In this document: piece after piece, positions 31,254-37,000 of the stretch
How positions within the stretch are numbered: position 1 is the stretch's first letter
How the letters are laid out: each line of letters starts with the position of its first letter
Source of the DNA: Collinsella tanakaei YIT 12063
Lineage (GTDB): Bacteria; Actinomycetota; Coriobacteriia; Coriobacteriales; Coriobacteriaceae
Assembly (NCBI RefSeq): GCF_000225705.1
Contig: NZ_JH126471.1
Span: 53,610-96,878 of the forward strand
Length of the DNA: 43,269 nucleotides
Direction of reading: 5' to 3'
Notes under the pieces: generated by a model
Told to the model about the DNA's origin: nothing
Databases searched by the model: none
The model's input: only the letters and a program-made list of their open reading frames with translations
Made by a program: the position numbers and the translations under genes

Positions 31254-31525
31254 CCGCCGGTCCTTGTCCTTTCGCTTGCATTACATACGCGCGCCCTTCT
31301 AGTCCGGGGCGTGCACACCCGTCGCGCCACGCCATGGCTGCGCGATGCGGACCTTCCCTTTGCGGCGGCTCGGCCTTAGGCTCCGGGTCGCCGCATCGCT
31401 ATGTCTCGATTCGGCACGGATCTTTCGCGCCGTCGCCAACAGCCCTGCGTACCTGCTAGGATAAAAGGTTGGAAATGATCGTGCGCGCCGCCCGTCTGCG
31501 TCCGCGCGCTTGGAAGGTGGTAGAC

Positions 31526-33382
31526 ATGGCGATTTTGCTGGGGTGCGACTCGGTTCATTTGGAGTTTCCCACCAAGCTTATCTTGGGTAGCGTCACGCTG
31601 GGCGTGGACGAGGGCGACCGCATCGGCATCGTGGGCACCAACGGCGACGGCAAGTCCACGCTGCTTTCCGTTCTCGCCGGAACGCTCGAACCCGATGAGG
31701 GCCGTGTGACGCACCGTCGCGACGTCCACGTTGGCCTGCTCGGCCAGCGCGATTCGCTGGATTCTGACGACACCGTGCACCATGCGGTGGTGGGCGATAT
31801 GCCCGAGTACGAATGGGCGGCGTCGCCTCGCATCCGCCAGATTTTGGACGGCCTTATCGCCGACGTTCCCTGGGAGGGCAAGGTGGGCGAGCTCTCCGGT
31901 GGCCAGCGCCGCCGCGTCGACCTGGCTCGCTTGCTTATTGGCACCTATGACGTGCTTATGTTGGACGAGCCTACCAACCACCTTGATATGCGCACCATCA
32001 ACTGGCTCGCCGAGCACTTGAAGCAGCGCTGGCATGCGGGGGCGGGCGCCTTGCTGGTGGTCACCCATGACCGTTGGTTTTTGGACGAGGTCTGCACTTC
32101 TATGTGGGAGGTCCATGACGGCAAGGTCGACCCCTTTGAGGGCGGTTACTCCGCATATATCCTGCAGCGCGTGGAGCGCGACCGCATGGCGCAGGTGGCA
32201 GAAGAGCGCCGCCGCAACATGGCGCGCAAGGAGCTGGCATGGCTTTCACGCGGCGCCCAGGCCCGCAGCACCAAGCCCAAGTTCCGTGTCGACGCCGCCC
32301 GAGAGCTCATCGCCGACGTTCCCCCCGTGCGAAACGAGCTGGAGCTCAAACGTCTGGCTGTAAGCCGCCTGGGCAAGCAGGTGATCGACGTCCTCGACGT
32401 GACCGCTGGGTATACCGATAGCTCCGCCGGCGATCCCGCCGCCCCCGTGCTGGAGGACGTCACCTGGCTTATCGGCGCGGGCGACCGCTACGGCCTGCTT
32501 GGTGCCAACGGCGCGGGAAAGACCACGCTGCTCGACGTTATCCAGGGCAAGATCCGTCCGCGAACCGGCCGCGTCAAGATTGGCCAGACGGTCAAGTTTG
32601 GCGTGCTCTCCCAGCAACTGCATGAGCTCGACCCGTACGAGACGGATACCATTCGCGAGGTTCTCTCTCGCTACAAGCGCGTCTACGTGGTTGATGGCAA
32701 GGAAACCAGTCCCGAGAAGCTGCTGGAGCGCCTGGGCTTCACCACCAAGCAGCAGTGGAGCCGCATCTGCGACCTCTCCGGCGGCCAGAAGCGCCGCTTG
32801 TCGCTGTTGCTCACCATTTTGGAAGAGCCCAACGTGCTGATTTTGGACGAGCCCGGCAACGACCTGGATACCGATATGCTCGCCATCGTGGAGGACCTGC
32901 TCGACGGCTGGCCCGGCACGCTGATCTTGGTGACGCACGACCGCTTCTTGATGGAGCGCGTGACGGATTCGCAATTCGCCTTGATCGACGGCCGCCTTCG
33001 CCATATGCCCGGCGGCGTTGACCAGTATCTCAAGGCGGCCGACGAGCTCGATGCTGCGGCAAGCGCCAGGCGCGCGGCGGGGTCTTCTTCTGGCGGTGCG
33101 TCGCCGGCTACTTCGCCCTCGTCCAAAAAGGCGCAGTCAAGTGCTGCCGCAGGCATGTCGAATGCTGAGCGCCAGCGCCTGAAGAAGGAGGTCGCATCGC
33201 TCGAGCGCAAGATGGATACGCGCCGTGCGCGTATCGAGGAGCTCGAGGCGGGCATGTTCGATATCGATCCCACGGACTTCGCGGCCCTGACCGCCCAGCA
33301 GGAGTCGATTGCGTCAGCGAAGGATGAGCTGGACGAGTTGGAGATGGCGTGGCTCGAAGCCAGCGAGCAGCTGGGGGAGTAG
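31526..33382 (+). CDS. ABC-F family ATPase (Uup-like)
   Basis: This soluble protein has two ABC ATPase domains in one chain and no membrane segment, as in ABC-F translation factors. It has 618 residues from ATG 31526, where AGGTGG lies just upstream. Domain 1: GTNGDGKST, LSGGQRRRVDLARLL, LMLDEPTNHLD, VVTHDRWFLDEV. The linker spans about residues 215-290. Domain 2: GANGAGKTT, LSGGQKRRLSLLL, LILDEPGNDLD (variant of TNxLD), LVTHDRFLMERV. After a Ser/Ala-rich spacer the C-terminus is a charged coiled coil (about 545-618, LKKEVASLERKMDTRRARIEE), as in Uup. Relatives bind the ribosome near the E site, and some bind branched DNA or protect against antibiotics. Housekeeping is more likely than resistance here, but sequence does not prove it. 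Confidence 0.9.
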   Translation: MAILLGCDSVHLEFPTKLILGSVTLGVDEGDRIGIVGTNGDGKSTLLSVLAGTLEPDEGRVTHRRDVHVGLLGQRDSLDSDDTVHHAVVGDMPEYEWAASPRIRQILDGLIADVPWEGKVGELSGGQRRRVDLARLLIGTYDVLMLDEPTNHLDMRTINWLAEHLKQRWHAGAGALLVVTHDRWFLDEVCTSMWEVHDGKVDPFEGGYSAYILQRVERDRMAQVAEERRRNMARKELAWLSRGAQARSTKPKFRVDAARELIADVPPVRNELELKRLAVSRLGKQVIDVLDVTAGYTDSSAGDPAAPVLEDVTWLIGAGDRYGLLGANGAGKTTLLDVIQGKIRPRTGRVKIGQTVKFGVLSQQLHELDPYETDTIREVLSRYKRVYVVDGKETSPEKLLERLGFTTKQQWSRICDLSGGQKRRLSLLLTILEEPNVLILDEPGNDLDTDMLAIVEDLLDGWPGTLILVTHDRFLMERVTDSQFALIDGRLRHMPGGVDQYLKAADELDAAASARRAAGSSSGGASPATSPSSKKAQSSAAAGMSNAERQRLKKEVASLERKMDTRRARIEELEAGMFDIDPTDFAALTAQQESIASAKDELDELEMAWLEASEQLGE

Positions 33383-33485
33383 CCTGCCGACTGTGATAGC
33401 GTCGCTGTGGCGGCATCGCTGAGGTTGCATTGCCTATCGATGCCTTCGCGCGGAAGGCTGCCTGAGCCCAGGATGGGTGCCGGAC

Positions 33486-33600
33486 CAAAAAGCGAGTTGG
33501 TGCGGAAATAGGGGTGTGCCAAATAATCGCTTAGTGCGGAGGTTGGGACAAATAGTCGCTTAGTGCGGTTCAAATCGCGTCAAATAATGCGTTAGTGCGG
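33486..33600 (+). repeat. Four direct copies of a 20-bp repeat (consensus CAAATAATCGCTTAGTGCGG)
   Basis: Copies start at 33486 (most diverged), 33520, 33549 and 33581, spaced 34, 29 and 32 bases, about three helical turns. The 3' half CTTAGTGCGG/GTTAGTGCGG is the best conserved part. The 9-14 base spacers differ from one another. No gene is present in 33383-33485. Confidence 0.8.
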
Positions 33601-33715
33601 TCCGGGCGAGAGATGGTAAGGGTACCTTATGAATAGGGCGTCCGCATCGCCCGAGCTAGAAGGACCGGACGATGCTGCTCGATGCATAAGGGAGGTCCGT
33701 CAAACCGCCTTCAAT

Positions 33716-33764
33716 CCGCACTAACGCACTATTTGACCAAACCTCCGCACTAAGCCGCTTTTTG
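33716..33764 (-). repeat. Two inverted copies of the same 20-bp repeat
   Basis: CCGCACTAACGCACTATTTG (33716-33735) and CCGCACTAAGCCGCTTTTTG (33745-33764) are the repeat on the other strand, 29 bases apart. They face the four direct copies across about 115 bases. The stretch 33765-34000 beyond shows no gene with a ribosome site. Confidence 0.8.
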
Positions 33765-34004
33765 ACACGCCGTCCTCTCCACGCTGACGCTCCATTTGGC
33801 CTCCGTCCTCTCTGGCTGCTCCCGCCCGCCGCGCCGTGCGCTCTCCGCGCGCGGCGGTCGATTGCTTTGCACCCGGCTTGAGAACGGGTCCGGCGCAAGA
33901 GGGGCGCGCAAAATGATGTCGGTCTCATGCAAAGACCGCCCAAGCGCCACTTGCTTGAGAATTGAGCTTCTCGCCATGGTTAATATGGGTATCAGGAAAA
34001 ATGG

Positions 34005-34022
34005 TAATGGTACCTAATGGTA
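34005..34022 (+). promoter_or_regulatory. Operator-like direct repeat TAATGGTA x2 upstream of the ABC fusion gene
   Basis: TAATGGTA at 34005-34012 and 34015-34022 are in phase, 10 bases apart. TTAATATGGGTATC lies just upstream and could contain a -10 (TAATAT). The pair sits directly before the hairpin at 34025. Confidence 0.4.
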
Positions 34023-34024
34023 TT

Positions 34025-34063
34025 GCCGATGTGTGGCGTCGCCATCACATCGGCGTTTCTTTT
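34025..34063 (+). terminator. Terminator or attenuator hairpin in the leader of the ABC fusion gene
   Basis: GCCGATGTG (34025-34033) pairs perfectly with CACATCGGC (34046-34054), with an inner TGGC/GCCA stem, followed by GTTTCTTTTC. It ends only about 30 bases before the ATG of the transporter gene and on the same strand, a placement that suits attenuation. Confidence 0.6.
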
Positions 34064-34092
34064 CGGGCGGGAACATACGGACGGGAACATAC

Positions 34093-37000
34093 ATGATCGA
34101 GATTCGCGACATCACTAAAACGTACACAACGGGCGACTTGGTTCAGCGCGCGCTGGACGGCGTGTCCGTGACGTTTCGCGAGAACGAGTTTGTGGCCGTG
34201 CTGGGTCCGTCTGGCTCCGGCAAGACCACGTTTCTCAACATCCTGGGCGGGTTCGACCACGCGGATTCGGGCGATATCGTAGTAAACGGTGTCTCTACCA
34301 GCGATTATGGAGACGCTGAGTGGGATACCTACCGCAATCACCGCGTGGGCTTCATCTTCCAAAGCTATAACCTCATCCCTCACCAGACCATTCTGGCCAA
34401 CGTCGAGCTCGCCCTCACGTTGGCGGGCGTGGACCGCGCGGAGCGAACCCGGCGCGCCCGTGCCGCGCTTGAGCGCGTGGGACTTGGCGCCCATGTGAAC
34501 AAGAAGCCCTCGCAGCTCTCCGGCGGCCAGATGCAGCGCGTGGCCATTGCTCGCGCCCTGGTGAACGATCCAGAGATCGTCCTGGCGGACGAGCCCACCG
34601 GCGCGCTCGACACGGAGACGGGCATCCAGGTGATGGACCTGCTCGCTGAGGTCGCACGCGAGCGCCTGGTCATCATGGTCACGCATAATCCGCAACTGGC
34701 CGAGGACTACGCTACGCGCATCGTCCGCATTCAAGACGGTCGCGTGGTGGACGATACCAATCCGGTGAGCGCGGACGAGCGTGCCGCCGCGGCGTATCGG
34801 GCTTCTTTGGACGAGCCTGCCGAGAAGGGTCCCAAACGCCGCTCGTCCATGAGCCTGCTCACGGCGCTGTCGCTCTCGTTCAACAACCTTATGACCAAAA
34901 AGGGCCGCACCATCATGACGGCTTTCGCCGGATCGATCGGCATCATCGGAATCGCGGCTATCCTGGCGCTTTCCAATGGCGTGAACGGCTATATCGCCAA
35001 GGTCGAGCAGGACACGCTGTCGAGCTATCCGCTGACCATAGCGCGGCAGAGCTACGACCTCTCCAGCATGCTGACGGGAGACGCGGGTTCGGGCGATGCC
35101 GCGGACCAGGGCGGATCAGGCGATGACGCGGACCCCGACGGCTCATCGTCCGCAGGGGACGCCGGAGTGGACAAGAGCGGCTCTATTCCGGTATTCACCA
35201 TGCTTTCCGATATGTTCGCCAGTGTTAAGTCGAATGACATGGCGAGCTTTAAGGCCTTTCTGGATCAGGATGCCGATGAGCTGGACGGCGAGGTTTCCGC
35301 GATTCAGTACGACTACGGCATCACACCGCTGGTGTACCGGGCGGACGTCTCCAACGGCCCCGCGCGGCTTTCGCCCAACGCTATGTCCACTGCCATGACG
35401 GGCGGGGCGAGTTCCGCGGCGATGGCGGGCACCATGATGACGGGCGCCACTTCCTTCAACGAGATGATCGATAACCCCGATCTTTTGGATGAGCAATACG
35501 ACGTGGTCGCCGGCAGGTGGGCAAAGGCGGCGGACGAGTGCGTGCTGGTGCTCTCCAGCAGCGGTAAGGTCTCGGACTTCACCCTGTACAGCATCGGCGT
35601 GCTCGATCCCGCCGAGCTGGACCGCATGGTCGATAGCACTATGAGCGGCGCGGGGGAGGTGGACGTGCCCAAGGTGGATGTGGACCTCACCTATGAGGAC
35701 GCGCTGGGTACAAGCTTCAAGGTGCTGGCCGCAAGCGACTTCTATCGCAAGAATGAGGAGACCGGCGGCTGGACCGACATGTCAGATGATGAGGCGTTCA
35801 TGACGCAGCAGGTCGCAGGCGGTCTGGACCTCAAGATCGTGGGCGTGGTGCAGCCCAGCCCCACGGCAAAATCCGCCGCGCTCTCGCAGGGTATCGCCTA
35901 CACGCACGGCCTCACCGAGGAGCTCATGGCGCGCGCGGCGAACTCGCAGATCGTCCAGCAGCAGCTCGGCAATCCGGACGTGGACGTGTTCACCGGCAAG
36001 TCGTTCGCGACCCTGCAAGAGGAGGTTAAGGGCGGCGTGGACCTTTCAAGCCTGTTTAGCGTGGACGAGTCCGGGTTGCGCGCGGCGTTTTCCGTCGATG
36101 CGTCCAAGCTGGGTGCGGGCCTTGACCTTTCCGGTTTCGATTTTTCCGGCATCGATATGGGCAACGTCGACATAGACCTATCTGGCATCGCGGGCTCTCT
36201 TGATATCGAGGGTATCGTCGTGGGCGCGCCGGCGCCGGATATCTCCGGCATTCTGGGTGATCTGGCCGAGGACCCCGTGCTCGACCGCGACCAGATGGAG
36301 CAGACCGCAACGCTTGCCAACCAGTTTGTGCAGGGCTTTGTCACGCGCTGGCTGCCCGCCCACGGTGAGGGGCTCGATCCGTCTGCAGATGATTTTGCGG
36401 CAAGGCTCCTTGTCCAATTCGCGGCATATGCAAGCAGCACCGAAGCCGATGGCGGCAAGGTGCTCTTGGACCAGATTGTCCAGGTGGCGGGTCAGCCCGT
36501 AGCGGACCGCTTGGATAAGATTGCGCGCGACTACATCGAGAACCAGCTTGCTCCCTACATGCAGGGCGCCTTTGAGAAGATGCTGGGGCAGGTGTCCAGT
36601 GAGATCTCAAATGCCGTCTCATCCCAGCTGCAGGCGGGTCTAACCGGCGCTATGGCGCAGATGGCCTCCAACATGGGCACCCAGCTGTCGCAGCGCTTGG
36701 CTGCCAATATGGCGGGAGCATTCAACGTTGATGCCTCGGCGTTCGCCAACGCGATCCACTTGAACATGGATGCCGAGGACTTGACGTCTCTTATGACTAG
36801 CTACGCCAACGCCGGCAAGCTGACCTACGACAACAACCTGGCAACGCTTGGCTATGCGGACCAGGCCAACCCGCAGTCTGTGAGCATCTATCCGGTGGAT
36901 TTCGAGGCGAAAGAGGCGGTGCTCTCCGCCATCGATGGCTACAACCAGGACGTCCGCGCGGCGGGGGAGGAAGACAAGGCGATTGTCTACACCGACTACA

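Follow-up and report, generated by a model that had tools for sequence, protein, structure and literature searches.

A dispersed two-sided array of conserved 20-bp sites in intergenic DNA of Collinsella tanakaei YIT 12063

The window, i.e. the whole stretch of 43,269 nucleotides from Collinsella tanakaei YIT 12063 that was analysed, carries an intergenic array of 20-bp sites. Its left neighbour is an ABC-F-type ATPase gene (31469–33382, labelled from two ABC domains) and its right neighbour an ABC transporter/FtsX permease gene with a start near 34093. The following features were placed at window positions:

33486..33505, plus strand: site A, outer left, CAAAAAGCGAGTTGGTGCGG; core mismatches 1/15; outer sites are optional in the family
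33520..33539, plus strand: site B, CAAATAATCGCTTAGTGCGG
33549..33568, plus strand: site C, CAAATAGTCGCTTAGTGCGG; 29 bp after B
33581..33600, plus strand: site D, CAAATAATGCGTTAGTGCGG; 32 bp after C
33601..33715, no strand: centre, 115 bp here; diverged except for two short motifs; coding signature absent
33621..33636, plus strand: central motif 1, GGTACCTTATGAATAG; highly conserved across the 24 copies
33681..33688, plus strand: central motif 2, GATGCATA; family form GATGNATA
33716..33735, minus strand: site E, first inverted site, CAAATAGTGCGTTAGTGCGG
33745..33764, minus strand: site F, CAAAAAGCGGCTTAGTGCGG; 29 bp from E; position 5 is A in 20/24 copies
33779..33798, minus strand: degraded site G, CAAATGGAGCGTCAGCGTGG; 34 bp from F; core mismatches 4/15

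The original prediction had described six 20-mers, starting at 33486, 33520, 33549 and 33581 on the plus strand and at 33716 and 33745 on the minus strand; all were found where it had placed them, in two sets that face each other across the claimed distance of about 115 bases, the centre being 115 bp long. Its count of six was correct for these copies, but the seventh, degraded site at 33779–33798 on the minus strand had been overlooked. Start spacings are 34, 29 and 32 bp for sites A–D and 29 bp for E–F, and the proposal that neighbouring copies share one helix face applied to A and C and to E and G, each pair being 63 bp apart (6.0 turns), and not in the form of strict phasing; 29, 32 and 34 bp correspond to 2.76, 3.05 and 3.24 turns at 10.5 bp per turn. 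Searching the window with the exact 20-mer and up to three mismatches yielded three matches (33520, 33549 and 33581) vs. a mean of 0.00 in 100 shuffles; the other three 20-mers diverge more, chiefly in the middle five bases. In the region 33300–34150, no promoter-like site was detected by a simple consensus scan, and one terminator-like site was found outside the array, vs. 0.9 expected. Directly before the ABC transporter gene, CGGGCGGGAACATA is present as two adjoining 14-bp copies (34064–34091). For one protein encoded in the window, the top three named hits come from Collinsella, at 64–67% identity, and the hit after them is at 38%.

The genome of the strain, a 2.49 Mb draft of 20 contigs with eight wholly masked, was searched with the 20-mer at up to three mismatches, which gave 68 places vs. 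0 for the reversed control. The degenerate site CAAAWANNNNNTTAGTGCGG gave 113 exact matches, and these lie without exception within 24 complete copies of the array (L009–L029 and L031–L033; the window copy is L026), one half copy (L030) or one short derivative (L255), which together make up the family. Clustered and intergenic occurrence, which the original prediction had proposed to check, was confirmed, as all 68 matches belong to the 24 arrays or to the half copy; a random scatter through coding DNA, named beforehand as evidence against the array, was not seen in this genome.

The element is about 300 bp long and non-coding. Its 20-bp motif is bipartite, composed of CAAAWA, five free bases and TTAGTGCGG, and is non-palindromic by inspection. 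The layout is A-34-B-29-C-32-D, followed by the centre and the inverted sites E-29-F-34-G, with occasional shifts of one or two bases; the left side typically holds three inner sites and one optional outer site, and the right, inverted side two inner sites and one optional outer site. Across the 24 complete copies the centre measures 114–118 bp and the D-to-E start spacing 134–138 bp, and one site unit has been lost in each of L022, L023 and L031. Along the contigs, 12 copies are oriented each way. Ten copies lie between convergent genes, eight between tandem and four between divergent genes, with two unclear, these counts being based on a simple ORF caller and our own reading. Flanking genes include ppk/rumA, rpoD, guaA, a phosphofructokinase gene and an EF-G-like gene; they have no relation to each other, so that a shared regulon is not apparent.

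The array had been interpreted as an iteron or multi-operator array. The multi-site array as such was substantiated, and a single iteron or operator locus was not, with 24 places beside unrelated genes. A local array that controls one neighbouring gene or replicon would agree with the regularly spaced direct repeats, the intergenic position and the location upstream of the ABC transporter gene, but it is largely refuted and considered very improbable, as the same layout is found at 24 loci with unrelated neighbouring genes and no replication initiator was present among the flanking proteins scanned, which covered part of the flanks. A CRISPR reading was set aside, the spacers being homologous between copies.

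Several further structures were recorded at or near members of the family. The half element (L030:2028–2076) consists of sites E and F only, with two exact matches, and lies about 70 bp past the stop codon of an FmdE-domain gene. The short palindromic derivative (L255:2074–2158) holds two exact facing 20-mers with the middle GGGCG, 45 bp apart, which enclose a further small palindrome built of site-like halves. At L021, two inverted stretches with 83% identity (1631–1714 and 2118–2199) flank the array, each behind a converging gene. A frame of 514 aa at L025 (2136–3680, minus strand) stops 22 bp short of the approximate edge of the array; it matches HipA_C below cut-off, and its N-terminal stretch looks HTH-like by eye.

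For the analysis of conservation, the 21 copies with standard spacing were aligned, with L022, L023 and L031 (unit lost) and L030 and L255 (partial) excluded. A two-base insertion in site F of L013 was kept at this stage, where it counts against conservation, and was skipped in the mismatch scoring of sites. Among the 21 copies, the mean pairwise difference was 0.031 at the 75 core positions of sites B–F, 0.344 at the middle five bases of the sites, 0.097 in the central motifs GGTACCTTATGAATAG and GATGNATA, and 0.406 at the other positions, with a minimum of 0.134. On a tree built from the other positions, terminal-branch changes per site amounted to 0.31 in the cores and 3.43 in the other positions (ratio 0.09, 11-fold fewer in the cores), a contrast that is inflated, though hardly eleven-fold, by the choice of core positions after the alignment had been seen. 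Mismatches in the inner cores number 0–3 of 75 in each of the 21 copies, with a mean of 0.17 of 15 per site. The low divergence of the cores beside the high divergence of the free positions indicates that the cores were held while their surroundings drifted, and, as no pair of copies is less than 13% apart in the free positions, the copies are old relative to one another. Mosaicism between copies was not supported (most uneven pair p = 0.0069 before correction for 210 pairs).

The outer sites follow a different course. Site A is intact (up to 3 of 15 mismatches) in 12/21 copies and site G in 10/21, and most of the other outer sites are near background, for which random positions gave a median of 10 mismatches with 1% at 6. 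Remnants were recognised for A in L013 and L019 (by eye) and for G in L010 and L026, at 4 mismatches. Where one or both outer sites have 5 or more mismatches (16 copies), the inner sites carry a mean of 0.94 mismatches of 75, vs. 0.75 of 75 in the copies with both outer sites intact, a small comparison as the latter group comprises 4 copies only; the window copy, with 0 inner mismatches, falls outside both groups. Were movement to depend on A and G as ends, copies devoid of them would be stranded and their inner sites should decay, whereas these sites were observed to be intact. The intact state of the inner sites despite outer-site loss favours use in place; it was read from one genome of the species, in which constraint acting in place is not directly separable from constraint on distinct source lineages.

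Folding of the window element gave −148.5 kcal/mol (z −8.1 vs. 100 shuffles). Transcription of the element into a foldback RNA, in which a read-through hairpin stabilises or ends the neighbouring messages, would be in line with this strong fold and with convergent neighbours at 10/24 copies by our own ORF reading. The D and E arms pair at the level of shuffled columns (92.7% vs. 92.7%), the consensus fold contains no pair kept by changes on both sides, and by the same reading 4/24 copies lie between diverging genes; Rfam gave no match at window positions 33300–34150 and tRNAs only in ten element loci. The central hairpin with a short outer helix exceeded most shuffles, with 77.1% paired vs. 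75.1% shuffled (9/500 as high), 21 cells changed on both sides vs. 12.9 (5/500) and a covariation score of 0.212 vs. 0.181 (10/500), a weak excess of a kind that related sequences can show without structure. The foldback RNA is judged improbable, and RNA structure was not supported as the main constraint, with the arms at shuffle level and a weak excess in the central hairpin. Given this shuffle-level pairing of the arms, the foldback seen for the window copy probably just results from copies that face each other.

A small peptide encoded in the centre was rejected. The frame in question, of about 31 codons, begins with ATG or GTG behind an AAGGG-like stretch and ends in site E; its codon-position entropies are flat (0.87, 0.88 and 0.91), its synonymous fraction of 0.272 is unremarkable vs. 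0.256–0.325 in the other five frames, and in-frame stops are present in 14/24 copies.

The distribution of the family outside this genome was examined at several levels. The exact degenerate pattern was found in 0/42 other genomes of the genus, and profile R1, derived from the B–D arm, gave 54 matches in the C. tanakaei genome and none in the 42 congeners under stricter filters. Conservation of the array in related strains, on which the original prediction had counted, was not borne out, the array occurring in none of 42 other species of the genus, with the strain's own species represented by one genome. A core chromosomal role is made less likely by this absence. A class search of 396 genomes, including that of the strain, returned one other genome with a single site; a phylum search with a two-site pattern, also of 396 genomes including that of the strain, returned 72 matches in the latter and one in each of five others, and the reversed control gave one match in each of 8 genomes. 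Both outcomes apply to the sampled genomes. By BLAST, the window copy had no plasmid or phage match at E 1e-5, and a second copy had one 34-base plasmid match at E 0.08. The single site matched 116 stretches of viral contigs, and for the two-site pattern there were at least 120 such stretches; with one match per stretch among the matches listed, these were taken as chance. A text search of the open-access literature, limited in reach, found no report of this array family, and one of four 12-base motif strings turned up in open-access text on an unrelated subject.

Loci devoid of the array were located in relatives at two syntenic positions. Between the protein alignments of ppk and rumA, 761 bp are present in C. 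tanakaei vs. 105–199 bp in 11 congener loci, namely those, among 29 fetched, in which the ppk alignment reached at least residue 489 of 510; the remaining 18 comprise ten with shorter ppk alignments and eight without any. For L021, both flanks could be aligned to congener G045, where they are 141 bp apart vs. 642 bp in C. tanakaei. The proposed check for empty sites in relatives thereby gave array-free loci, and not base-exact empty sites.

At the L021-syntenic locus of G045 (L465, approximately 1359–1501), a different facing repeat, CTCAGAAAAGTGCCTGTCC, surrounds what appears by eye to be a terminator-like hairpin. With up to one mismatch, it was counted 26 times in G045, 30 times in G020, 3 times in G055 and once in C. 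tanakaei, and in none of the other 39 congeners. Related species of the genus thus seem to carry different dispersed repeat families, and the genus may offer a natural series for the gain and loss of such families.

That the two sets are the ends of a small non-coding mobile element had also been proposed. The non-coding nature of the element and its many copies were corroborated, and conserved folding was not, covariation of the D/E arms being not above shuffles; the copies were most likely spread by a transposition-like process. As in a MITE, the element is short, non-coding and multi-copy and has terminal inverted repeats. The main rival explanation regards the arrays as paired ends of a non-autonomous transposon, moved by a multi-site transposase of the Tn7/Mu type, with cores conserved since only copies with good sites move and not for host need. 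Two facing, unequal arrays of about 20-bp sites resemble Tn7 ends, and dispersal in many copies, intergenic position and absence from congeners fit a mobile family.

Transposase genes were sought in the families rve, Y1 and IS110. For rve (PF00665), a single hit below cut-off was obtained in a draft whose masked contigs could hide a TnsB-type gene; by our own reading it belongs to an IS21 IstA gene, next to an IstB-like one, which lies on contig C12 and is devoid of the motif. Y1 (RAYT, PF01797) gave no match in the genome at E ≤ 0.001. IS110-type domains were present at 15 places (L308–L322), 13 of them above cut-off, and the motif half TTAGTGCG and its reverse complement were absent from these 15 loci, 13 of which contain masked stretches. 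The 11 smallest contigs showed no motif half, eight of them being wholly masked and thus uninformative. No separated arrays around cargo were seen, each complete copy having the same short centre, and neither the search for such arrays nor those for rve and Y1 genes identified an autonomous element. Words shared at fixed offsets reached at most 3/24 for 4-mers and 2/24 for 5-mers, so that no target duplication was found, although old insertions could have lost it. The ends of the element are undefined because the outer sites vary, and terminal TG/CA was viewed by eye only.

Beyond these points, the transposon-end explanation is countered by the frequent loss of the outermost sites, the expected termini, while inner sites are intact, and by the 21 copies being all at least 13% apart in free positions, with no sign of recent jumps. 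It becomes strained in that, with near-perfect cores and free positions at least 13% different, each copy would need to derive recently from its own long-separated source. The observed pattern could still arise if many variants had arrived horizontally or if movement were of the cut-and-paste type, and in a draft of 20 contigs, eight wholly masked, an autonomous copy could be missing or hidden. Paired transposon ends are therefore kept as a possible, though rather unlikely, account of the arrays.

The inspection of candidate mobile genes and small contigs gave additional observations. A partly masked gene at L010:769–1803, 87 bp from the approximate array edge, is IS110-like by eye and matched no Pfam family. 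Contig C11 looks like ribosomal RNA by our own reading. Contig C10 (L453) carries long genes with a common N-terminal sequence in both orientations, beside an Abi_2 gene; two of these surface-protein genes were scanned and were SLH-positive, and L453 is possibly an invertible surface locus.

Taken with the observed copy number, near-fixed geometry, absence from the searched congeners, core conservation and outer-site loss, the preferred reading, given about an even chance, is that a transposition-like process once spread the element, which is now kept as a set of docking arrays for a putative DNA-binding protein. Two conserved blocks separated by five free bases suggest a protein with two DNA contacts, for which the motif would be the site, and the recurring spacings suggest contact between proteins on neighbouring sites. 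The putative protein may form a single complex across the five inner sites. Copies would have spread in this lineage by the past transposition-like process, and the arrays would now be retained if the bound complex is useful at many chromosomal places; chromosome architecture, insulation between genes and regulation are candidate roles, all of which fit. More specifically, and only tentatively, the protein could be host-encoded or domesticated, forming a five-site complex at about 24 arrays and so constituting a lineage-specific chromosome-organising or insulating system that arose from a former mobile element.

Dispersed repeats in bacteria are commonly put down to mobile debris. In each aligned copy of this family the motif is preserved, whereas the rest drifts freely and the outer sites decay, as would be expected if the sites are in use. 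If one protein binds all arrays, the repeat family becomes a testable chromosome-wide system; should the arrays be mobile, they would amount to miniature elements whose multi-site ends are unusually complex and whose transposase is unseen.

Among known systems, iterons and multi-operator arrays likewise consist of direct copies of a site, here of 20 bp, at regular spacing, whereas the element occupies 24 chromosomal loci in one two-sided layout. The CAAAWA core of the element may resemble TnsB sites. Tn7-like ends share with it several sites of about 20 bp, putative transposase sites here, in two facing, unequal, inverted arrays; they differ in that no tnsB-type gene, cargo or target duplication was found here and the outermost sites are often lost. 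In Tn7 itself, the left end holds three TnsB sites and the right end four, according to an excerpt of PMC8649781. REPINs and BIMEs with RAYT are similar in their inverted units in intergenic DNA and in forming a population within one genome, but no Y1/RAYT gene was found here, and the element has non-palindromic 20-bp sites in arrays of 5–7 with a conserved centre. Palindromic REP units with a GTAG-type tag, which REP units carry according to the title of PMC3733652, are not what was found, the site being non-palindromic and bipartite by inspection.

Dispersed short repeats such as REPINs, BOX, RUP and Correia elements are a known kind, as set out in excerpts of PMC8049555 and PMC3049150. MITEs, Correia, RUP and BOX elements are, like the present element, short, non-coding, intergenic, multi-copy and able to form a foldback; the present element differs from them in its 5–7 protein-like sites at fixed spacing, and in that its cores are conserved and the rest diverged, with no near-identical pairs among 21 copies. 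To our knowledge, it is an unusual variant for 5–7 protein-like sites to form a two-sided array in which the geometry is fixed and conservation is confined to the cores.
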